Source of the DNA: an uncultured Clostridia bacterium
GTDB taxonomy: Bacteria; Bacillota; Clostridia; Christensenellales; UBA3700
DNA: 64,000 nt
Assembly (NCBI GenBank): GCA_945872615.1
Contig: CAMBZZ010000003.1
Span: 62,001-126,000 of the forward strand
Reading direction: 5' to 3'
The position numbers and the translations under genes were made by a program. The notes beneath the pieces were generated by a model. That model did not search any database, was not told where the DNA came from, and worked only from the letters and a program-made list of their open reading frames with translations. Shown here one piece after another: positions 33,292 to 57,656 of the stretch; the stretch's first letter is position 1, and every line of letters begins with the position of its first letter.

Positions 33292-34626
33292 TTACTCTTT
33301 GACTTCTTCTGCTTTTTCTACCAATTTCGCGCTGTTGCAGAACTTCTTGACAGACTCGATTGCACTTACGCAACGATCGAGAGTGTCGTAGGTCTCTCCT
33401 ACGCAGAGAATGGATTTTTGAGTGTTTCTAAGCTTATAATAATATCTGCCCGTCTTGTCTCTATCGATGATAAAGTTGTTTGCCAAGGCGTTTTTCTTGA
33501 TGTTTTCCATTGCGGACTTAGCGGCTGCTTCGGTGCTGTAAGACTCGGTCACGAGTAGCAACTCACCGTTGGATGCCCACAAGTTGGCAAGATACATATC
33601 GTCTACTTCTTCTATAGTCCACTTGCCCGTGTATCCCTTCTTAGCTACGGCAACTTCGCCCGTTGGCTCGTACTTGATGACGGTCTTGTCCTCGATTACG
33701 TCTTCCATCAAAATTGCGTTTTGAGCAAATTTCTTGACGGATTCGATAGAACTTTCGCAACTCGTCTTAGAACTATATACTTCGCCCACGCACAAAAGTC
33801 TGTTGGCGCCGCTCTTGAGTTTGTAGTAATAATTGCCCTTCTTATCGCAATGAACTTCAAACTTGCCGAGGTCCACGTTCTTTTTGATAGTTTCAATACC
33901 GTTCATTACGCCTTTGGCAGTAGAATAAGTTTCGCTGGTAAGCAAAACGGTACCGTTGTTGGCGTGAAGATATGCTACGAACTCGTCGTCGCTCTTTTGG
34001 TAAACTTGCCATTTGCCTACTGCTCCGCGTTTTGCGGCAGGCTTTTTAGCTTCGGTCTCTTTGACCGCTTCTTTCTTTTCTTTGGCAGGCTTTTCTTGAG
34101 CTGCGGCAACTTCGGTCTTTTTGACTGCCTCTTTCTTCTCTTTGGCAGGTTTCTCTTCTACGACTTCGGCTTTTGGCTCCTCTACGACCGCCTCTTCCTC
34201 TTGGGTCAAAGTCTCTTCCGCAACTTCTTCGACGGTGACTTCTTCCGCAACTTCTTCGGTCGTAGGCTCTTCTACCTCTTCTTGAGCTGCAACTTCTTCT
34301 ACCTCTTCTTGAACTGCAACTTCTTCTACCTCTTCGGCTTTTGGTTCTTCAACCACTTCGGTTGCTACCTCTTCTACCGGCTCTTCTACTGCTTCTTCGG
34401 TCTTAGCTTCCTCAACGACTTGAGGCTCCGCTACCGCTTCTTGAGCGTCGCTCTTTGCTTCGGTATGTACGTCCTCTGTCTCAACAACTTTATTGTCGTT
34501 TGCTTTCTTAGCTTTTTTCTTGCTTGCGCTGACTGCCACGAGTACGATGATAAGCAATACCACGACTGCAACTACAACGCAACATGCAATAAGATTATCT
34601 TTGATAAAATTGATCAATGCTTCCAT
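33292..34626 (-). CDS. Membrane-anchored protein with four DUF1508 (YegP-like) repeats
   Basis: A 444-aa protein with one N-terminal membrane helix (about 10-32), a long Glu/Val/Ala-rich low-complexity linker (45-200) with repeated EEV and KPAKEKKEAVK units, and two C-terminal tandem YegP-type modules. Each module has two repeats: GKWQVYQKSDDEFVAYLHA and FEVHCDKKGNYYYKLKSG in the first, GKWTIEEVDDMYLANLWAS and FIIDRDKTGRYYYKLRNT in the second. DUF1508 function is not established; a surface or stress role is usually supposed. The linker spans the wall or cytosol depending on topology. Confidence 0.85.
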   Translation of the reverse strand: MEALINFIKDNLIACCVVVAVVVLLIIVLVAVSASKKKAKKANDNKVVETEDVHTEAKSDAQEAVAEPQVVEEAKTEEAVEEPVEEVATEVVEEPKAEEVEEVAVQEEVEEVAAQEEVEEPTTEEVAEEVTVEEVAEETLTQEEEAVVEEPKAEVVEEKPAKEKKEAVKKTEVAAAQEKPAKEKKEAVKETEAKKPAAKRGAVGKWQVYQKSDDEFVAYLHANNGTVLLTSETYSTAKGVMNGIETIKKNVDLGKFEVHCDKKGNYYYKLKSGANRLLCVGEVYSSKTSCESSIESVKKFAQNAILMEDVIEDKTVIKYEPTGEVAVAKKGYTGKWTIEEVDDMYLANLWASNGELLLVTESYSTEAAAKSAMENIKKNALANNFIIDRDKTGRYYYKLRNTQKSILCVGETYDTLDRCVSAIESVKKFCNSAKLVEKAEEVKE

Positions 34627-37518: not shown

Positions 37519-38049
37519 TTAATTGACTTTACTTGCTATCTCGTCGAGCAATGCCTTTACGTCCCTCTCCAAGTCGGCTCGTGCTGTTTCCGCATACTCA
37601 AACTTACACGATAATCCTTGACACACTATCGTCGCCACGCTTGCGTTTTCCGTTGTCGTCAGTTTATACGTCGCTTGCAAGCCTTGATAAGTTGCCGCCG
37701 TCATTTCGTCGTCAATTACGTTGCTTAGGCTTCTTGCGTCTATAGTCAGTTTTTTGTTTTGACCTACCACAACCAATATATAGCCCGTCGCTCTTTCGTC
37801 GCTAAGCTCAAACCTCACGGGCACCGTCCCGTCGTATCCTTGCGGATAGGTGATTGCGCAAAACTCTACTATTCCGTCAAACGGCAAATTATTCGGCACG
37901 ACTTTTCCGTCAAGTTTGCCGTTCTTTTTTTGTAGTTGTTCGTAAGTCACTTGCTGTTGTTGCACGGGTTGCAATCCCCATATAAGCACCGCAACCAACA
38001 CGATAATTGCAACCGCTATCACTACTCCGATTATCGCTTTTTTCGTCAT
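37519..38049 (-). CDS. Single-pass exported protein of the XRE cassette 1
   Basis: A 176-aa protein with an N-terminal anchor (KKAIIGVVIAVAIIVLVAVLI, residues 3-23), a beta-rich outer domain with two Cys pairs of residues (FCAITY, VCQGLSCKF), and a C-terminal amphipathic helix ending DVKALLDEIASKVN. No family recognised. It shares this layout with three proteins 1.4-3 kb away. GGAGGG precedes ATG 38049. Its promoter has a GCAAC-N5-GTTGC repeat directly abutting the -35 box, the same arrangement as at the regulator gene upstream. Confidence 0.75.
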   Translation of the reverse strand: MTKKAIIGVVIAVAIIVLVAVLIWGLQPVQQQQVTYEQLQKKNGKLDGKVVPNNLPFDGIVEFCAITYPQGYDGTVPVRFELSDERATGYILVVVGQNKKLTIDARSLSNVIDDEMTAATYQGLQATYKLTTTENASVATIVCQGLSCKFEYAETARADLERDVKALLDEIASKVN

Positions 38050-38091
38050 AAGCCCTCCGTACGCGCTCTTAATCGCGTTCCTCTCAATATC

Positions 38092-38120
38092 ATTATATCG
38101 CCCCAGTTCGTCTACTTCAA
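38092..38120 (-). promoter_or_regulatory. Promoter of the cassette 1 exported protein
   Basis: Minus-strand TTGAAG (38115-38120), 17-bp spacer, TATAAT (38092-38097). The inverted repeat at 38121-38135 touches the -35 box. Confidence 0.8.
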
Positions 38121-38156
38121 GCAACGAAACGTTGCGTCTTGTCAACAAAATGTTGC
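38121..38156. promoter_or_regulatory. Paired operator-like repeats, cassette 1, downstream gene
   Basis: GCAAC-GAAAC-GTTGC (38121-38135, perfect arms) and TCAAC-AAAAT-GTTGC (38142-38156, one mismatch). Centres are 21 bp apart, two helical turns. Predicted binding site of the XRE regulator encoded at 38607-39203. Confidence 0.65.
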
Positions 38157-38158
38157 TT

Positions 38159-38623
38159 TTAGTTAGACGGCAGACACTCTTTGCCCTGTCCGTCAAAAGC
38201 GATGATTGCCGTACTGCAAGTTTTCCACGGTTTGTCGTCGTGTTTATATTCTACTACGGCGCACCAGTATCGAGTTTTGCCTTCGGTGTTTGCCACCACA
38301 TATACGTTCTCGCCAATGTCCAAGTAAAACTTTTCTACGACGTCAACCAAAGTCATATCTTCGACTTTATACGCTTGGTAATCGCTACCGTATAGTTTGA
38401 GCCTTATCTGCAATCTCGTCGTGCCGAGACAAAATTCGTTGGTTGCCTTCGCCAATATCAACCCGTTGCTTCCGCCGACGTCTACCGCTAGCACCGCCGC
38501 CATTCCGTGACTTGGTGTTGAAGGGTATTTTTCAACAAGCACGAAGCAACAAACTGCTCCCGCCAACGATAAGATTAGCACTATTGCCACAACCATCGTC
38601 GAATATTTATATTTGTCGGTCAT
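38159..38623 (-). CDS. Exported partner protein of the XRE regulator, cassette 1
   Basis: A 154-aa protein with an N-terminal membrane helix (about 9-31) and an outer beta-rich domain. It is homologous to the partner in cassette 2: both have an Asp-x-x-GSN stretch, ATN-E/K-F-x-LG, V-x-x-MTL and the near-identical block STEGKTRYWCAVVEY (here NTEGKTRYWCAVVEY). The family is not known to me. The ATG with GGAGAA lies 17 bp inside the end of the regulator gene, so the two are translationally coupled. It probably senses or modulates signals for the membrane-anchored regulator. Confidence 0.75.
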   Translation of the reverse strand: MTDKYKYSTMVVAIVLILSLAGAVCCFVLVEKYPSTPSHGMAAVLAVDVGGSNGLILAKATNEFCLGTTRLQIRLKLYGSDYQAYKVEDMTLVDVVEKFYLDIGENVYVVANTEGKTRYWCAVVEYKHDDKPWKTCSTAIIAFDGQGKECLPSN

Positions 38624-39203
38624 TACTTTTCTCCGCATCTTGTTTGCTTTTCTTGTTTTCTATGGCAGTTTCTACCAACCACACACAGGCGACTACCGCA
38701 ACAGCCGTGCACGCAATCGCTACGGATTTCATCTTATCGGCAGTAGTCAAATTGAAAGATACCGAATAGGCTACGTTGGAATTTAGTGGATTAAAAAACG
38801 GCAAAGACGCAACGACCCCAACAACTACCACCGCCGACAACACGAGCACAACGAGTACTATGAGGCTCTTTTTGACGCGTTTTTTCGGCAAACTATTCTC
38901 ACGATTATCCCGTCGTTCCTCTATGCTATCGTCTTGATTTTTCAATTCCTTGGTTTCGCCTACGATAGCACTACTCTCCATACTTACCGCGTCTTGTAGT
39001 TTTTCTACGCCTATTAATTTATTCGCGTCGACACTCAACGCCTTGCACAATCCTAAGATCCCCAAATAATCGGGCTCACAAATGCCTTTTTCCCAATTAG
39101 ACAAAGCCTGTCGCGACATGTCCAACTTCTCAGCCAACTGAGCTTGCGTCATACCGCTTTGTTTCCGCAATTCTCTTATTCTCTCTCCAAACTCGTTGTT
39201 CAT
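38607..39203 (-). CDS. Membrane-anchored XRE regulator, cassette 1
   Basis: A 198-aa one-component regulator: an N-terminal XRE helix-turn-helix (IRELRKQSGMTQAQLAEKLD, then MSRQALSNWEKG), a charged linker, and two membrane helices near the C-terminus (about 128-150 and 172-192) around a loop with YSVSFNLTTADKMKSVAIAC. The paralogue in cassette 2 shares PFF-P-S-YS-SF-T-DK-K in the same loop. MNN at 39203 is chosen to match that paralogue; ATG 39236 and GTG 39260 are possible. The leader has an 8-bp inverted repeat overlapping ATG 39236. Confidence 0.85.
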   Translation of the reverse strand: MNNEFGERIRELRKQSGMTQAQLAEKLDMSRQALSNWEKGICEPDYLGILGLCKALSVDANKLIGVEKLQDAVSMESSAIVGETKELKNQDDSIEERRDNRENSLPKKRVKKSLIVLVVLVLSAVVVVGVVASLPFFNPLNSNVAYSVSFNLTTADKMKSVAIACTAVAVVACVWLVETAIENKKSKQDAEKSNDRQI

Positions 39204-39235
39204 TTGTTCTAATACCGCACCTTCTGATTTTGTCA

Positions 39236-39274
39236 TAGACGACGATAGGTGTATTTTCACAATGCTGTCGTCTA
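39236..39274 (-). repeat. Inverted repeat in the leader of XRE regulator 1
   Basis: TAGACGAC (39236-39243) and GTCGTCTA (39267-39274), 23 bp apart. In the mRNA it would form a stem that includes the ATG at 39236, so it may control start choice, or it may be a second operator. Confidence 0.5.
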
Positions 39275-39287
39275 GGTTGACACAATA

Positions 39288-39316
39288 ATTTTATTATTAT
39301 TTCTTACTTTTTTCAA
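39288..39316 (-). promoter_or_regulatory. Promoter of XRE regulator 1
   Basis: Minus-strand TTGAAA (39311-39316), 17-bp spacer, TAAAAT (39288-39293), with the repeat 39317-39331 directly upstream of the -35 box. Confidence 0.8.
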
Positions 39317-39352
39317 GCAACAAAATGTGGCAATCGCGCAACAAATCGTTGC
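39317..39352. promoter_or_regulatory. Paired operator-like repeats at XRE regulator 1 promoter
   Basis: GCAAC-AAAAT-GTGGC (39317-39331, one mismatch) and GCAAC-AAATC-GTTGC (39338-39352, perfect). Centres 21 bp apart, same design as 38121-38156, implying autoregulation. Confidence 0.65.
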
Positions 39353-39390
39353 CTTTGCCATATTGACAAGATTAATTTACAAAATGCGAG

Positions 39391-39422
39391 CAAAAAACCG
39401 CCCTTGTGTTTAGCGAGAGCGG
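39391..39422 (-). terminator. Terminator of cassette 2
   Basis: 7-bp GC-rich stem with one wobble (minus strand CCGCTCT / AGGGCGG) followed by TTTTTT, 10 bp after the last gene's stop. Confidence 0.7.
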
Positions 39423-39431
39423 CTGAATGGT

Positions 39432-39956
39432 TTACAAAATCGCATCGATAATCTGCTTAATATCTTTGCCATACTTGGTTTGAATTTCCTCAATGCTTTC
39501 TTGCACCTTAGGCACTCTAACTACGTAATATTCCGCAAGATATATCTTTACGGAGCAATACTCATCGTCACTAGACGTCAAGTCTTGATAGTATATCTTG
39601 TTGCCGCCCAAGTCGTACTCTATCGCGTCGGAAACGTCCACCTTTTCGACGTGTCTCTCCACAACAAAATCTCGCGATTCGAGGGATATAGTATTGACGG
39701 CGGCATAGAAGTACTTTACCACGTCCTTGTTTTGTGTGATGCGAGGCTGATAAGAACTTACGTCGTCTCTATACGCCACGTACCAGGTCGCGCCCTGCAA
39801 TGCTCCCTCGTCCACTACTTGCACGCCGTATATTTTCTTGATTTCGTCAGCGTTGCGACTATAACCAAACACGTTGGGTAATCCCCAACCCAATACGGTC
39901 GCCGTAACTGCCAACACTACCAAAACTACGATCGATATTATCGCTTTCTTTTTCAT
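39432..39956 (-). CDS. Single-pass exported protein, cassette 2, third in row
   Basis: A 174-aa protein with an N-terminal membrane helix (KKKAIISIVVLVVLAVTATV) and a polar outer domain rich in Tyr and Val, ending in a helix KDIKQIIDAIL. Its ATG lies 1 bp after the previous stop, with GGGAGG before it, so it is co-transcribed. The layout of anchor, beta-rich part and C-terminal helix matches the two genes before it and the cassette 1 protein at 37519. No family recognised. Confidence 0.75.
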   Translation of the reverse strand: MKKKAIISIVVLVVLAVTATVLGWGLPNVFGYSRNADEIKKIYGVQVVDEGALQGATWYVAYRDDVSSYQPRITQNKDVVKYFYAAVNTISLESRDFVVERHVEKVDVSDAIEYDLGGNKIYYQDLTSSDDEYCSVKIYLAEYYVVRVPKVQESIEEIQTKYGKDIKQIIDAIL

Positions 39957-39957
39957 A

Positions 39958-40485
39958 TTACGCCTCCCATATACCAGCCAACACGCATGCGACGTCGCTC
40001 TCTATTTGCTCGATATTGGCAATAGACGAATAGGTAAACTTAATACGATAGCGGTCTATCGAAAAGTAAAGTCGTTTGTTTCCGTTTTCGCTTTCTACCC
40101 TATAGTTGATTTCTTTGCCTTTATATTGCGCACTTTCGTCAAGATAATAATACAAGTTTTGCGTGCAAGGTATAATTATCTCGACACGGCTTGCACTCAA
40201 CTCCTTGGAAGCCGTAATTGCGTACACGTATTGAGTTTTCCTGTGGAGTGCGGGGATACTGTCACCCACGTTTGCCCTATTGTTATACTGCACTCGCCAA
40301 GTCAAATCTGCCCACAATCCTTGCATACACACTTGACAATCCAAATCAAAGGAGTCGTTCAACTCGGCGGAAGAATAATATATGATATTCTTCACGTCCC
40401 TATTGACGTAGACGACCACCGCAACGCTTGCCACAACTACGACGACTATAGCTAAAACTATACATATTTTCCAAGTGTTTTTCAT
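39958..40485 (-). CDS. Single-pass exported protein, cassette 2, second in row
   Basis: A 175-aa protein with an N-terminal anchor (residues 6-27, very Val-rich), four Cys residues in the outer part (DLDCQVCMQGLW, IPCTQNLYYY, DVACVLAGIW), and a beta-rich character. AAGGAG precedes the ATG, 48 bp after the preceding gene's stop. It sits in a row of three similar single-pass proteins behind one promoter with a GCAAG-N5-CTTGC site. No family recognised. Confidence 0.75.
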   Translation of the reverse strand: MKNTWKICIVLAIVVVVVASVAVVVYVNRDVKNIIYYSSAELNDSFDLDCQVCMQGLWADLTWRVQYNNRANVGDSIPALHRKTQYVYAITASKELSASRVEIIIPCTQNLYYYLDESAQYKGKEINYRVESENGNKRLYFSIDRYRIKFTYSSIANIEQIESDVACVLAGIWEA

Positions 40486-40533
40486 TGTCGGTCTCCTTCG
40501 TCCGTTATCGTATATGGCAATAATCGTCAGTCG

Positions 40534-41115
40534 TCATCCTTCCACGATATTGTCCATTATCGTTTTTGCAAAGGTAGTCATATCCTCGGAGTTAATCTTA
40601 GCGCCTTGTTCCAAATAGGCTTGGACACCGATAAAGCGTTCGTCTTTGAGTATCCTCACCGATATTGCGTTTTCCATCATTAAGACGTCGTACGAGCAAT
40701 CTCCGTATCTCCAATCTCCAAACAGTTGATACTTTTTGGTGGATTTATCAAACTTGACGTTCATACGTACGATTGCCGCACCGTCAAGGTCAAGCCTACC
40801 CGTGTATTCCATATTGTAAGATTCTGCCTTTTTGTCATAACCGCTTATGCCCTCGGGTATAGTCTTAGTTCTACCGCTAAAATGCACGGATACGGGTTTT
40901 CTGAGTTCAAATCCGATACTTTCAAAATATGCTTGGTCGACGTACAATCCGTCGCCACCCAACACCAGTTTTACCTCTTCGTACGACGCCTCCAAATCAC
41001 CTGAACCATAATAGTGGAATTGAGACAGACTGTAGTACGTAATGCCAAAGACGCCTATCAACAACACCGCCACCACGACAGCAACTATTATCGCAATTTT
41101 CTTCTTTTTGGTCAT
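40534..41115 (-). CDS. Single-pass exported protein, cassette 2, first in row
   Basis: A 193-aa protein with an N-terminal anchor (KKKKIAIIVAVVVAVLLIGV), an outer domain with YYGSGDLEASYEEVKLVLGG, and a C-terminal amphipathic helix (MTTFAKTIMDNIVEG). It heads a three-gene row with its own promoter, which directly abuts the inverted repeat 41196-41210. A ribosome site GGAGTG lies before the ATG. It has the same overall plan as its two downstream neighbours, suggesting old duplication, though sequence identity is low by eye. Confidence 0.75.
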   Translation of the reverse strand: MTKKKKIAIIVAVVVAVLLIGVFGITYYSLSQFHYYGSGDLEASYEEVKLVLGGDGLYVDQAYFESIGFELRKPVSVHFSGRTKTIPEGISGYDKKAESYNMEYTGRLDLDGAAIVRMNVKFDKSTKKYQLFGDWRYGDCSYDVLMMENAISVRILKDERFIGVQAYLEQGAKINSEDMTTFAKTIMDNIVEG

Positions 41116-41166
41116 AACGTCACTCCATAATTGTATTTGATTCCGAATAATATCTTCCTCAACTTA

Positions 41167-41195
41167 ATTGTATTATAGAACTATCTACTATTCAA
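41167..41195 (-). promoter_or_regulatory. Promoter of the cassette 2 exported protein row
   Basis: Minus-strand TTGAAT (41190-41195), 17-bp spacer, TACAAT (41167-41172). A competing TATAAT lies at 41172-41177. Confidence 0.75.
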
Positions 41196-41210
41196 GCAAG
41201 TATTTCTTGC
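41196..41210. promoter_or_regulatory. Operator-like repeat, cassette 2, downstream genes
   Basis: GCAAG-TATTT-CTTGC, perfect arms, abutting the -35 box. Two degenerate copies of its right half, ATTTCTTTGACA, end at 41231 and 41253, giving steps of about 20-22 bp. Confidence 0.6.
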
Positions 41211-41247
41211 ATTTGTCCGATTTCTTTGACATCCATGCCCAATTTCT

Positions 41248-41280
41248 TTGACATATGCCCAAAAAATGGGCATATGTCAA
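41248..41280 (-). repeat. Perfect 14-bp inverted repeat after the cassette 2 partner gene
   Basis: TTGACATATGCCCA (41248-41261) and TGGGCATATGTCAA (41267-41280) with a 5-nt loop, 18 bp after the stop of the gene at 41299. No T run follows on the minus strand, so it is not a typical terminator; RNA processing or protein binding is possible. Confidence 0.7.
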
Positions 41281-41298
41281 GTTGTCGAAGCTAATTGC

Positions 41299-41787
41299 CT
41301 AAATAGTAGTATTGCCGTATGCGTCGAATTTTTTTATTAAACTTTCTTCTCTTACCCAACCCCTATTGTCTTGATTATATTCTACAACGGCGCACCAGTA
41401 TTGGGTTTTGCCTTCTGTTGAGCACGATACTGTCAAAGTTTTATTTATATCGAGGTCGGCGATTTCTGCCGTTCCTCTCAGCGTCATTTCATCCACGTAC
41501 TGTACGAAAGTCTCGCTGGAATATAAATACACCTTCACCGGTATGACGGAATATCCCAACGTAAACTTGTTGGTAGCAATGCCGCTGATAGTACCGTAAG
41601 AGCCCGTCGAATCGTTGGAGCCTACTACGTCAATGGAGATACTTGTAAATAATCCATAAGTAGAGCTCTCTTTCTCTCGTTCTTGTGCGTAAGCCTTGCC
41701 GAAACCGTAAAACGATATGGATAGCAACACCGCTATTGCCAACACCGTTACGACAATTTTCAATTTCAATTCGTTGATTTTAGTCAT
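41299..41787 (-). CDS. Exported partner protein of the XRE regulator, cassette 2
   Basis: A 162-aa protein with an N-terminal hydrophobic segment (about 9-29) that may be a signal peptide or anchor. The outer domain is homologous to the cassette 1 partner: DVVGSN, GIATNKFTLG, VDEMTLRG and STEGKTQYWCAVVEY. The start overlaps the regulator gene by 8 bp and AAGGAGA precedes it, so expression is coupled to the regulator. Function unknown; conservation of the regulator-partner pairing suggests a joint signalling unit. Confidence 0.78.
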   Translation of the reverse strand: MTKINELKLKIVVTVLAIAVLLSISFYGFGKAYAQEREKESSTYGLFTSISIDVVGSNDSTGSYGTISGIATNKFTLGYSVIPVKVYLYSSETFVQYVDEMTLRGTAEIADLDINKTLTVSCSTEGKTQYWCAVVEYNQDNRGWVREESLIKKFDAYGNTTI

Positions 41788-42460
41788 GTTTATTCTCCTT
41801 GTTATTCTTTAGTGTCTTAATCATTCCTACCAATTTCACAACCAACCATATAACCGCCACGAGGCACGCTATAGCCACAGTCTTCGATTTGTCCACAGTC
41901 GACATATAAAAAGACATGCTATACTGAGCTGTAGACCCGATTGGCTCAAAGAACGGTATTGCGGCAACACCGCCTACAAATATCAATAGCGCAATAGCTA
42001 TCGACGTCACTATTATTCTACCTATCTTTTTCTTTTTGACGGGTTTGCACTCCTCTGTCTCAGTCGGTTTAACTTGCTCTTGAGCCGCCTCGTCTTGCGC
42101 TATATTTTGCACAATATCGCCAATCGTCTCTTCGGGCTCGGCATCGGGCGCAACGTCGCAAGCCGTCTCTTCAAGCTCGATTGTCTGCGCAATATCGCAA
42201 GCCGTCTCTTCAAGTTCGATTGTCTGCGCAATATCGCAAGCCTCCTCATCTTGATTTTGACCATGTCCGTATAGACAGTTGGGGTCTGTACCCAAAACTT
42301 TGCAAAGCTTAAGGACGCTATCGCAGTCGGGTTGGCAAGTGCCCTTCTCCCAATTAGATACGGTCTGGCGAGAAACGTTTAGCTTGTCCGCCAGTTGATT
42401 TTGTGTCAAGATTTGCTTGTTCCTCAAGTCTTTGATTTTCTCTCCGAGATAGTTATTCAT
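41780..42460 (-). CDS. Membrane-anchored XRE regulator, cassette 2
   Basis: A 226-aa paralogue of the regulator at 38607. It has an N-terminal XRE domain (IKDLRNKQILTQNQLADKLN, VSRQTVSNWEKG), a linker containing 13-residue units (ACDIAQTIELEET twice, then ACDVAPDAEPEET), and two membrane helices (about 146-168 and 190-210) around a loop with IPFFEPIGSTAQYSMSF and TVDKSKTVAIAC. The ATG at 42460 has AGAGG before it; the frame extends upstream through the promoter without a start of merit. Paired repeats upstream suggest autoregulation. Confidence 0.85.
   Translation of the reverse strand: MNNYLGEKIKDLRNKQILTQNQLADKLNVSRQTVSNWEKGTCQPDCDSVLKLCKVLGTDPNCLYGHGQNQDEEACDIAQTIELEETACDIAQTIELEETACDVAPDAEPEETIGDIVQNIAQDEAAQEQVKPTETEECKPVKKKKIGRIIVTSIAIALLIFVGGVAAIPFFEPIGSTAQYSMSFYMSTVDKSKTVAIACLVAVIWLVVKLVGMIKTLKNNKENKHD
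42157..42234 (-). repeat. 39-bp in-frame tandem repeat in the XRE 2 linker
   Basis: Two near-identical 39-bp copies (42157-42195, 42196-42234; one base differs) plus the start of a third encode the 13-residue linker units. Such a repeat can change copy number by slippage. Confidence 0.85.
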
Positions 42461-42506: not shown

Positions 42507-42535
42507 ATAATATCACATTTCCTTTTACTTTTCAA
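42507..42535 (-). promoter_or_regulatory. Promoter of XRE regulator 2
   Basis: Minus-strand TTGAAA (42530-42535), 17-bp spacer, TATTAT (42507-42512). The nearest repeat ends 10 bp upstream, one helical turn. Confidence 0.75.
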
Positions 42536-42545
42536 GCCAAGTCGC

Positions 42546-42581
42546 GCAAGAGTTTCTTGCATTCGCGCAAGAAACTCTTGC
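42546..42581. promoter_or_regulatory. Paired operator-like repeats at XRE regulator 2 promoter
   Basis: GCAAG-AGTTT-CTTGC (42546-42560) and GCAAG-AAACT-CTTGC (42567-42581), both with perfect arms and centres 21 bp apart; the two are also reverse complements of each other. Confidence 0.7.
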
Positions 42582-53789: not shown

Positions 53790-55187
53790 TTATTCTCCTC
53801 TCAGCGTTTCTATTATTTCTTTTTTTGACACGCTTTTCACCGAAGCGTAGCCAATGAATATGGCGGTGGCGAAAATCAAAGCTACCATAGCTATTATCGG
53901 CACGATTATACTCAGCCAAGATATGCTTATCGCAGTCATTGCGCCGGGCACGCCGAGTTTCATAACGGCATTGACGGCATATTTTATTCCCACGCATACT
54001 CCAAAGCCTATCGTTGCAAAGATAGCGCTTGCCTTGGCGCAGATAATGATTGCTTGCACCATATAAATCTTGGGTAGGTCTTGCTTTTGAGCGCCCATTG
54101 CCCGAAGCATCATCATATACTTCTTGCGTTTTTCTACGTCAAACCTCACGTTGAGGAAGTAATACGCAATAGTTACGATAAGCAACACGATACCCGTGAG
54201 CATAAGCATAAACCCAAGCGATTGTGCTATCTTATATAGCAATCTATAACCGCTAAAGGCGGCGGATTCACCTACGTGCTCGTCGGCAATTCCCTCTTTC
54301 GTCAGCAGCAAGTCCCTATAACTATCGGCTTCTACGTAGACTGAGGTGTTTCTAAAATGGCTCTTGCCTATATCGAGCATCATATATCGTTGCTCTTGGT
54401 TAAGCGATACCTTGTCGGCGATATTAGCGTATCCTTCACTACCGCCGACCAATCTCAACACGGGCTCGTCGTTCCTATACACGTTGGTGTCCACGACAAA
54501 AAACCAACTCCTCATAGGGTGCTCCGTCTCTTTCTTAAACTCGTTATAAAATCGGCTTTTTATTACGCCCACCACCCTATATTTATAACAAACGTATCCG
54601 TCTACTTCTTGTTGCCTACTATTGGCGTAGATACTTACCTCTTTACCGTAGACGTCGTGCGCGCTCAGCCCGAGCTTATCCAACAAGGCTTGCGAAAGTA
54701 TAATCTGTCCTCTACCGTCTCCGCTAAAAGCCTCGTCGCATCCTTCCACAAAAAGTCCGCCTGCCTTGTCAAAGTTTTTCGGCAACAAAATATTGCTTTT
54801 TTCTGCGTCCAATATCGCTATATTCGACGTCTCACCCGCAAGCGAAAACTCCCTGTCTTCCACTATCATATTGACTTCAACCGACAAAAACTCGTCTGTC
54901 AACGTATATTCTTCATATACTATTCTCCTATCTGCTCTCTCGTACCCCGCAAGCCTACTCGCGCCCTTTTCGTTTTGACGATAATCTTCAAAACTAGCGC
55001 TAAGATAGAGTAAATACGGCGCTTTGTTTAGTTCGGCGTTCATAGAAACGCTCACGCCCATCAGTAGGACGAATACGGGAATGATAATTATCATACTCAC
55101 CGCCATCATAGCTATTATCGTTTTGGTGCTCTTTTTGTTGGCTTTGAGCCCTTGTTTTGCTAGGGCAAATATAGAATTTCTATTCAT
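53790..55187 (-). CDS. FtsX-like ABC permease 1
   Basis: A 465-aa permease with one N-terminal membrane helix (about 21-47), a large extracytoplasmic domain (about 50-330) and three C-terminal helices, the standard MacB/FtsX layout. The cytoplasmic coupling segment FDVEKRKKYMMMLRAMGAQKQDL and the terminal SVSKKEIIETLRGE are typical. It overlaps the other permease gene by 4 bp, forming a heterodimeric exporter with the ATPase downstream. Substrate unknown. Confidence 0.9.
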   Translation of the reverse strand: MNRNSIFALAKQGLKANKKSTKTIIAMMAVSMIIIIPVFVLLMGVSVSMNAELNKAPYLLYLSASFEDYRQNEKGASRLAGYERADRRIVYEEYTLTDEFLSVEVNMIVEDREFSLAGETSNIAILDAEKSNILLPKNFDKAGGLFVEGCDEAFSGDGRGQIILSQALLDKLGLSAHDVYGKEVSIYANSRQQEVDGYVCYKYRVVGVIKSRFYNEFKKETEHPMRSWFFVVDTNVYRNDEPVLRLVGGSEGYANIADKVSLNQEQRYMMLDIGKSHFRNTSVYVEADSYRDLLLTKEGIADEHVGESAAFSGYRLLYKIAQSLGFMLMLTGIVLLIVTIAYYFLNVRFDVEKRKKYMMMLRAMGAQKQDLPKIYMVQAIIICAKASAIFATIGFGVCVGIKYAVNAVMKLGVPGAMTAISISWLSIIVPIIAMVALIFATAIFIGYASVKSVSKKEIIETLRGE

Positions 55188-56407
55188 ACCTCACCCCTTA
55201 TCAATATCGTAGCGTCAACTCGGTTTATCCTACTAGACGCTCTCCAAGCTACCAACGCGCATACTATCTCCATAACGACTAAGGCAACGAGAGCAAATAG
55301 CGCGTTGAAACCTAAGATAAACTTGTCGGAAGTAAAATATACCACGTCAAACAAAGCCGTCAAAACGTCTAGCATACAAAAGTGCAATACCGTGGCGGAT
55401 ACGACGGTGGCTATTATCGTACCGACCACGACGTACACCGACCACACCGCCATATAATAACACCAAATATTTTTGGCTCTCAGCCCCATAGCCTTGAGCA
55501 AGCCCCAACTTCTACGATTAGCCAAAAAGTTGAGCTTGATAGAATTGACCATGCCCGCAAGGTTGAGCATCATTCCTATCGCTATCAAAAAGGAATATAT
55601 TCCGTCCACGCCCAAGCGGAACTTGTGTAGCGAGTCGTAAGAGGAAACGGCGTCCGAGCCCATCACCAAAGGATTGTCGTCTATCTTGCCGTATTCTATA
55701 GTGCACTCTTCGAGTAGCTCCGACAATTTCTTCACCTCGGATATATCTTCAAATCCGTCGGGCTTGACAATATTTATTCGAGCAATATTGTCAAAGTTGC
55801 GATAGTCGACGTAACTATTCCTACCTTTGACTATTCCTTTGACGAGATACGTCTTGCCGTTTACGTCTATACTGTCCCCTACGGCAAAGTCTTCCCCCGC
55901 ATTTTCCGCCAGCCATATATAGTCCTTACCGTCGGCTTCCTCGTCCAACTCTTCGCCCGCTATCGTCTCAAAGCCGATAAGGAATGTCTCGGAATAGGTA
56001 CTTGGCATACCGTACGCGCAGTAGGCTTTTAGCCCCGCGTATTTGCCTTCTCCCCACGAGTGCCCCACGTATCCCGTCGAAAAGTCGTATTCGAGGTTGT
56101 CGTACTCTTGATGCAACCTATTGACTACACTCTCCGTCTGTTGCGCCGTCAAATAAAACGCCATAGGTTTATTTTTCGGTATTCCGTCCCTTACTCTTAT
56201 CTTTTCCTCGTCGGGATATATCCAAATCTCTGCGCCGTTTTTGGACTGTTTCAAGACTATATCGTCGGCGTTGACGCCCGTATAATAGCCCAAGTTGCCA
56301 AGGATAATAATCATCGTGCACACAAGACCAACGCAACACACGATGACCGCCATCTGCACCACGTCTTTTTTGAAGTTTCTTTTTAGTAACCAAGCCGTTA
56401 TTCCCAT
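55184..56407 (-). CDS. FtsX-like ABC permease 2
   Basis: A 407-aa permease with the same layout as its partner: a first helix at about 16-38, an outer domain to about 270, and three helices at the end. The coupling segment FLANRRSWGLLKAMGLRAKNIW and the end RVDATILIRGE match the FtsX family. It begins 45 bp after the AT-rich exported protein gene and is in line with the third XRE regulator. The ATG is preceded only by AT-rich sequence with no clear ribosome site. Confidence 0.9.
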   Translation of the reverse strand: MGITAWLLKRNFKKDVVQMAVIVCCVGLVCTMIIILGNLGYYTGVNADDIVLKQSKNGAEIWIYPDEEKIRVRDGIPKNKPMAFYLTAQQTESVVNRLHQEYDNLEYDFSTGYVGHSWGEGKYAGLKAYCAYGMPSTYSETFLIGFETIAGEELDEEADGKDYIWLAENAGEDFAVGDSIDVNGKTYLVKGIVKGRNSYVDYRNFDNIARINIVKPDGFEDISEVKKLSELLEECTIEYGKIDDNPLVMGSDAVSSYDSLHKFRLGVDGIYSFLIAIGMMLNLAGMVNSIKLNFLANRRSWGLLKAMGLRAKNIWCYYMAVWSVYVVVGTIIATVVSATVLHFCMLDVLTALFDVVYFTSDKFILGFNALFALVALVVMEIVCALVAWRASSRINRVDATILIRGEV

Positions 56408-56452: not shown

Positions 56453-56947
56453 TTAGCCTATTATACTATAGGTTATTGTTTTATTAATATATTCCGTTGA
56501 AGTAGCCTTAATTGTTCCACTTACTATTACTTCATAATCCCCGTATCCATAAAATATACTAGTTATTGTAATATTTTGTTTCATATCGTTAGCTGTATAA
56601 ATTGTTTTGGAAATATTATCAGTAGCAACATTATTCCCATTAAGTTTCACAACAACGTCTAAATTCATCTCAAATGCGGGAGCAAATAATATCCTTTTAA
56701 ATGATGCATATTCCATATATAAATTATAATATGTATGATCAGTTATTGTATTGCCATTAATACCATGTGCTGTAAGATAAACATTATAACTCATATAATT
56801 TGTAGTACCTGTATATCCGATAGTCCCTTTATTTAATATAGGATTTTCTTCTGCCGTACTAATATTCATTTGCATAAAAAGCAAACAAAGCGTAATCAAC
56901 AATATTGTAATCGTAATAATTTGTAATTTTCTAATTGTTTTAGTCAT
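56453..56947 (-). CDS. AT-rich exported protein of cassette 3
   Basis: A 164-aa protein with an N-terminal hydrophobic segment (about 9-25), then a Thr-, Asn- and Tyr-rich beta-like domain (NKGTIGYTGTTNYMSYNVYL). It has no Cys. Codon use is strikingly AT-rich compared with the genes on both sides, a hint of different origin or recent acquisition. AAGGAGA precedes the ATG. It lies between the XRE regulator and the permeases, so it may be the exporter's cargo or a sensor. It is not clearly related to the cassette 1 and 2 partners. No family recognised. Confidence 0.7.
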   Translation of the reverse strand: MTKTIRKLQIITITILLITLCLLFMQMNISTAEENPILNKGTIGYTGTTNYMSYNVYLTAHGINGNTITDHTYYNLYMEYASFKRILFAPAFEMNLDVVVKLNGNNVATDNISKTIYTANDMKQNITITSIFYGYGDYEVIVSGTIKATSTEYINKTITYSIIG

Positions 56948-57074: not shown

Positions 57075-57656
57075 TTAATTGCTTTTATTAGTTCTATCTT
57101 CAACATCTACATATTTTCGCTCACTCATCTTTGACACAATCAACTCTATAGCATTTATCACCACGTCTACGACTGCTATCGATATAACACATACTATCGC
57201 TATCGTTTGTTCGTAGTCGCTTATACCGCTAAACAACTTTTCGGGTTTTCTAAACAAAAACGCCACCGTCAACAATATGACTATCAATGATAACGCTACC
57301 ACCGTTCCGATCACAACGATATGCTTTTTTGCCTTGATTTTGGCAAGTTTTTCTATCTCCTTATGCTCGGTTCGTTGCCTGTCGATGACCTTTGTCAACT
57401 TGTCCACTATTTGCATATCCTTAGACGAGCCACCCTCGACTTCTTCTTCCCCTGCCGCTTGTTTGAGGAATTCTTCTACCGTCAAGTCAAACTCGTGACA
57501 CAACAATATCATACTGTCCACGTCTATCGAGGATAGTCCTCTCTCCCACGCGCTCACGGTCTGCCTACTCACTTGCACCCTGCTCGCCAGTTCCTCTTGC
57601 GACCAGCCTTTGGATTTTCTCAATTTTACTATCACGTCTTTAGTTTTCAGTTCCAT
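57075..57656 (-). CDS. Membrane-anchored XRE regulator, cassette 3
   Basis: A 193-aa regulator with an N-terminal XRE domain (VKLRKSKGWSQEELASRVQ, VSRQTVSAWERG), a charged and probably coiled linker (LTKVIDRQRTEHKEIEKLAKI), and two C-terminal membrane helices (about 112-134 and 148-170) with a short loop (RKPEKLFSGISDYEQ). The plan equals that of the two other regulators, but the loop is shorter and different. An inverted repeat with the core CTTTACAA lies about 50 bp upstream. It is first in line with the exported protein and exporter genes. Confidence 0.85.
   Translation of the reverse strand: MELKTKDVIVKLRKSKGWSQEELASRVQVSRQTVSAWERGLSSIDVDSMILLCHEFDLTVEEFLKQAAGEEEVEGGSSKDMQIVDKLTKVIDRQRTEHKEIEKLAKIKAKKHIVVIGTVVALSLIVILLTVAFLFRKPEKLFSGISDYEQTIAIVCVISIAVVDVVINAIELIVSKMSERKYVDVEDRTNKSN

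Follow-up and report, generated by a model that had tools for sequence, protein, structure and literature searches.

Regulator-partner cassettes and their closest described counterparts

Partner-coupled transmembrane transcription regulators have been described in proteobacteria, and the table of a 2023 survey gives no associated protein for the characterised Gram-positive members BcrR, BreG, AguR, LP_2991, HcrR, MmsR, MtbS and NanR (PMC10269533). In the co-component systems, a membrane-anchored helix-turn-helix (HTH) protein and an exported beta-rich protein, encoded by an overlapping downstream gene, form one receptor (PMC9214523). BcrR of Enterococcus faecalis is membrane-anchored and has no partner (PMC3968067), and it possesses a four-helix domain (PMC13384398). 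Here we analyze a stretch of 64,000 nucleotides (the window; contig CAMBZZ010000003.1, positions 62,001 to 126,000) from the 1.68 Mb genome of an uncultured Clostridia bacterium of the order Christensenellales. It carries two cassettes, A and B, each encoding a predicted membrane-anchored XRE regulator (REG) and an exported partner (PAR). Our best reading, to which we give a probability of roughly 0.55, is that REG is a one-component regulator that is bound to the membrane, regulates its own operon and has a dedicated secreted PAR, and that the system works in the manner of ToxR/ToxS or VtrA/VtrC on the basis of an XRE/BcrR-like protein.

All genes of both cassettes lie on the minus strand. 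REG-A (38607-39203) overlaps PAR-A (38159-38638) by 32 nucleotides (nt), and REG-B (41780-42460) overlaps PAR-B (41299-41787) by 8 nt. The two regulators share 36% identity over their length and match the Pfam family HTH_3 (E = 9.7e-13 for REG-A and 7.8e-14 for REG-B), while the two partners share 34% identity (E = 7e-26). PAR-A is recognised by this identity, by the family alignment and by its N-terminal segment. The initial annotation, which had described two paralogous cassettes of an XRE regulator and an overlapping gene for an exported partner, is borne out by these values.

The pairing of the two genes is near-obligate in relatives. Across 46 genomes of the family, PAR was found directly behind REG in 26 of 26 cases, and ten of the 11 further full-length PARs found in the order beyond the family have the same position. 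Taken together, a REG on the same strand lies immediately ahead of 36 of the 37 full-length PARs. Some of these loci form nearly identical pairs in species that are close relatives, so that not every case is independent. The one exception is L097, where PAR stands without REG; L101 holds a truncated PAR fragment. The median distance between the genes is 6 nt, with an overlap in 16 of 35 pairs and at most 30 nt in 29 of 35. Because a search of the window's genome with the REG profile finds about 16 loci at E <= 1e-10, adjacency by chance would be of the order of one percent; a co-occurrence well above chance, which the initial annotation had named as its check, is thus what we found. In one relative, which is among the ten cases beyond the family, REG and PAR are naturally fused in-frame into a single frame (L096:6448-7554). 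Two tandem REG genes precede one PAR in L042, L059 and L096. Most supported clades are common to the REG and PAR trees, with a few weak conflicts, and the window proteins are sisters in both.

REG combines an HTH_3 DNA-binding domain and a predicted transmembrane region in one protein, and on these sequence features it is a transmembrane transcription regulator as defined in PMC10269533. With VtrA/VtrC and ToxR/ToxS (PMC9214523) it shares the anchored DNA-binding protein and a beta-rich exported partner whose gene lies directly downstream (36/37) and often overlaps (16/35). In those systems regulator and partner form an obligate heterodimer; the observation that bears on such a pairing here is the fused REG-PAR frame. 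Unlike these co-component systems, REG has an HTH_3-type XRE domain and not a winged OmpR/CadC-like HTH, and two helices with a loop of 19-34 residues in place of one helix with a folded outer domain. PAR is predicted to be mostly cleaved free and immunoglobulin-like (Ig-like), whereas the partner there is lipocalin-like, and REG/PAR occur in a different phylum. Because the HTH type and topology that we tested differ, we do not regard REG/PAR as a member of the co-component systems.

Like BcrR, REG is a Gram-positive membrane-anchored regulator with helices and no large outer domain, and BcrR acts on an export gene set. The HTH of BcrR is XRE-like, which matches that of REG. REG differs from BcrR in its two helices instead of four, its dedicated exported partner, its several predicted surface-protein targets and its predicted autoregulation. 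LytTR regulatory systems likewise consist of a regulator and a membrane partner encoded by two genes in one operon, but there a soluble LytTR protein is held by a membrane inhibitor (PMC13384398), whereas in REG/PAR the membrane anchor is part of the DNA-binding protein and it is the partner that is exported; a Pfam search of REG gave HTH_3 family matches and none to a LytTR domain. The initial annotation had held that no such system was described. This was too strong, since transmembrane transcription regulators (PMC10269533), BcrR (PMC3968067) and VtrA/VtrC (PMC9214523) are known, but the present combination is found in none of them.

Topology of REG and predicted fold of PAR

Two hydrophobic segments, separated by the loop, are present in 35 of 35 REG relatives examined. 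Summed over these proteins, Lys/Arg residues number 176 in the part preceding helix 1, 161 in the part following helix 2 and 49 within the loop. Such a concentration on the cytoplasmic sides indicates that both termini are inside and the loop outside. For REG-A, the XRE domain, the two C-terminal membrane helices and an outer loop of about 30 residues were assigned from Pfam, hydropathy, charges and AlphaFold2, whose model places the helices at residues 107-133 and 154-195; in the REG model, the HTH domain is predicted with confidence and joined by a disordered linker to the two helices, and the loop contains no strand. REG-B, assigned from its HTH_3 match and its identity to REG-A, contains a 14-residue tandem repeat (ACDIAQTIELEET) in its linker. 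The proposed XRE domain with two C-terminal membrane helices holds for both regulators on Pfam and charge distribution, and for REG-A also on the AlphaFold2 helices. The conserved outer loop that had also been proposed stands in part: the loop is outside, but the VAIAC motif assigned to it already forms the beginning of membrane helix 2, and the loop is only loosely conserved family-wide. The recognition helices read SRQALSNWEKG in REG-A and SRQTVSNWEKG in REG-B, a difference that, judged from sequence, could account for the one-base difference between the operator half-sites described below.

Ahead of the PAR domain, an AxA signal-peptidase motif occurs in PAR-B (AYA/QE) and in nearly all PAR relatives, so most PARs would be released and not anchored. 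PAR-A has no clear signal-peptidase site and is therefore possibly membrane-anchored, and two distant members, L099 and L100, resemble lipoproteins. The PAR model consists of one N-terminal helix and eight strands, with a mean predicted local distance difference test score of 89.9 and about 97 over the domain, and the predicted beta-sandwich of PAR-B spans residues 47-154. In the structural comparison with VIA-align, generic Ig-like and FN3-like domains gave the best matches (Z up to 9.3), and others, including lipocalin-like folds, would be compatible; the fold predicted for PAR, PAR-A included, is an Ig-like beta-sandwich. The Ig-like arrangement is common and uninformative on PAR function. 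The sensor domain of the anti-sigma factor RsgI4 (Z 8.1) was among these generic matches and we did not take it as kinship; Foldseek matches were large enzymes with low template-modelling scores only.

No family in Pfam, NCBIfam or the PDB sequences matched PAR, and no relatives were found in viral contigs. A class-wide search of the genomes sampled gave no full-length PAR outside the order, only weak and partial N-terminal matches; one of the matches outside the order, L165, was inspected and is not a PAR. The relatives with a name in which PAR occurs are genomes from metagenomes, under the labels Christensenellaceae, Christensenella sp., Clostridia or Clostridiales.

Candidate operators and predicted target genes

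New in this analysis are candidate operators in the form of 15-bp palindromes, cassette-specific and present at each of the four promoters that serve the two cassettes, with two further exact matches elsewhere in the genome. Both A promoters carry GCAAC-N5-GTTGC and both B promoters GCAAG-N5-CTTGC. The REG-A/PAR-A promoter has an A-type pair, GCAACGATTTGTTGC and GCCACATTTTGTTGC, 21 bp apart (39317-39352, minus strand, as for all features of these promoters); the proximal palindrome abuts the -35 box TTGAAA (39311-39316), followed after 17 bp by the -10 box TAAAAT (39288-39293). The same layout, with a pair at 21 bp (38121-38156), a -35 box TTGAAG (38115-38120) abutted by the proximal palindrome and, after 17 bp, a -10 box TATAAT (38092-38097), precedes the gene 37519-38049. 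At the REG-B/PAR-B promoter, two perfect B-type copies 21 bp apart (42546-42581) lie 10 bp from the -35 box TTGAAA (42530-42535), with the -10 box TATTAT (42507-42512) after 17 bp. A single B-type operator, GCAAGAAATACTTGC (41196-41210), abuts the -35 box TTGAAT (41190-41195) of the operon 41115-39432, whose -10 box TACAAT (41167-41172) again follows after 17 bp. Between PAR-B and the next gene, near this operator, we also observed degenerate repeats of 22 bp together with an inverted repeat of 14 nt without mismatch, TTGACATATGCCCA (41214-41280).

The palindrome thus abuts a TTGAA -35 box in three of the four promoters and lies about one helical turn further upstream in the fourth, and the -10 box follows after 17 bp in all four; a generic promoter scan recovered the same four. 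Pairs at exactly 21 bp occur in three of the four, and 60 shuffled windows contained one such pair in total. By itself the palindrome is too frequent to be of use (50 sites genome-wide against 12 in the control), but with TTGAA directly after it, it is found at exactly four places in the whole genome, against 0.025 per random genome. Two of these four matches are independent of the motif definition; each is of the B type, with its -10 box again at a distance of 17 bp. One (C1:32938; L161:3737-3958) is a tandem operator before a 37-residue single-helix frame, downstream of a BspA-type gene. The other (C12:23461; L160:962-10501) precedes a row of genes for small lipoproteins and single-pass proteins, in an operon that continues with a 955-residue BspA/InlB-repeat surface protein and two ABC-FtsX genes; no regulator was seen beside this operon. 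ABC-FtsX genes thus lie behind a distant B-type operator and also near some REG relatives, and not within the window cassettes. A palindrome at the edge of the -35 box is the typical position of an activator, for example lambda CI at PRM, and for this reason we prefer activation over repression as the predicted action of REG.

Single-pass exported proteins lie behind each cassette, as had been stated, yet they are not a conserved part of it, because the one encoded at 39958-40485 is an orphan among the family genomes and relatives of 40534-41115 sit on contigs other than those with cassettes. They are likely REG targets, forming a predicted regulon: 37519-38049, with one N-terminal membrane helix and its own A-type promoter, for REG-A, and 40534-41115, with an operator upstream, for REG-B. 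The genes 39958-40485 and 39432-39956, all on the minus strand as well, probably belong to the same operon as 40534-41115.

Other genes of the surroundings are also worth describing. The window encodes a third XRE regulator that has two membrane helices (57075-57656, minus strand), followed by an exported protein of 164 residues (56453-56947, minus strand), which has no homology to PAR by profile comparison, and then by an FtsX-type permease (55184-56407). A fourth such regulator of the same genome lies directly before a 220-residue lipoprotein-like protein (C2; L035:3138-4337). Directly behind the cassette, some relatives encode giant exported proteins of 1550-1630 residues where complete (L037:2319-7205, L052:7027-11745, L055:1490-6202, L057:7451-12109), and the same giant stands behind a REG without PAR at L144:1-2784. 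Frames resembling site-specific recombinases occur near the cassette at L048:115-1659, L053:8386-9069 and L053:10791-11672. Finally, a 444-residue single-pass protein of the window (33292-34626, minus strand) has an E/V-rich linker and four DUF1508 repeats.

Possible mechanism and significance

We propose that REG, with its cytoplasmic XRE domain, flexible linker, two membrane helices and short outside loop, would bind the tandem palindromes, which adjoin the -35 box or lie some 10 bp ahead of it, and that it would most likely activate its own operon together with a regulon of limited size, made up of genes for surface proteins and export. PAR, a predicted beta-sandwich partner, would be translated by coupling from the overlapping downstream gene and secreted, PAR-A perhaps remaining anchored. 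Either directly or together with a ligand from outside the cell, it would most likely contact REG at the outer loop or where the helices end on the outer side; this contact may set the dimer state of REG, which would make PAR its sensor or modulator. REG-A and REG-B would be insulated through the one-base half-site difference, GCAAC versus GCAAG. Direct signal reading at the surface by REG, as the initial annotation had suggested, is plausible. The architecture, the topology, the near-obligate pairing with its overlaps and fusion, the secretion signals and the palindromes at the four promoters are read from sequence, and DNA binding by REG, its activating role and the part of PAR are inferred.

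Several observations weigh against this model. The outer loop of REG is short and poorly conserved, and the correlation of REG and PAR distances (r 0.53-0.59) is little above that between the HTH and the membrane part of REG (0.44). In relatives, no operator shared by the promoter of REG and the following gene could be detected. Other XRE regulators with two membrane helices have no PAR at all, and a REG relative without PAR (L144:2994-3575) precedes a giant surface protein of the type that lies behind a complete cassette in L037. The strongest alternative is that REG alone senses either the membrane or a compound that acts on the envelope, PAR being no more than its most constant output, a surface protein of Ig-like fold that is secreted and has no part in signalling. 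BcrR, which is of the XRE type with membrane helices, senses bacitracin with neither partner nor outer domain (PMC3968067), and this would agree with the PAR-less regulator genes found here beside ABC-FtsX genes and with the L144 arrangement. We nevertheless consider it less likely than our own reading, as PAR is near-obligately coupled to REG, often by overlap, while all other downstream genes vary, and a REG-PAR fusion frame exists.

The cleavable signal peptide of nearly all PARs, together with the autoregulatory operator layout, would also fit a PAR that is a released protein signal, reporting cell density or wall state to REG in the same or neighbouring cells. This appears improbable: PAR-A apparently has no cleavage site, two members are lipoprotein-like, the fusion would tether PAR, and no conserved export or processing partner accompanies the genes. 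A small overlapping two-gene operon with an XRE gene and autoregulatory operators is likewise reminiscent of a toxin-antitoxin or bacteriocin-immunity pair in which REG would be an autorepressing antitoxin, but PAR combines a signal peptide with a beta-sandwich of 110 residues that is well ordered, and REG is a membrane protein with separate predicted targets elsewhere, which makes such a pair very unlikely.

The cassettes may tentatively, at somewhat less than an even chance, represent a co-component class that evolved independently in the Bacillota. A dedicated, secreted protein of Ig-like fold would switch an XRE regulator that has two membrane helices, every paralogue would use an operator code of its own, and the paralogues would jointly choose which operons of surface proteins and exporters are displayed by a gut bacterium. 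This compact two-gene system, which includes an unnamed protein family, recurs in uncultured gut Christensenellales, and predicted operators are available for two paralogues in one genome. It offers a testable model for two questions, how a repressor-like protein bound to the membrane reads the outside and how paralogues may be insulated through a one-base operator difference. In gut bacteria of the Christensenella group, the cassette probably lets an outside cue switch surface genes without the usual kinase relay.

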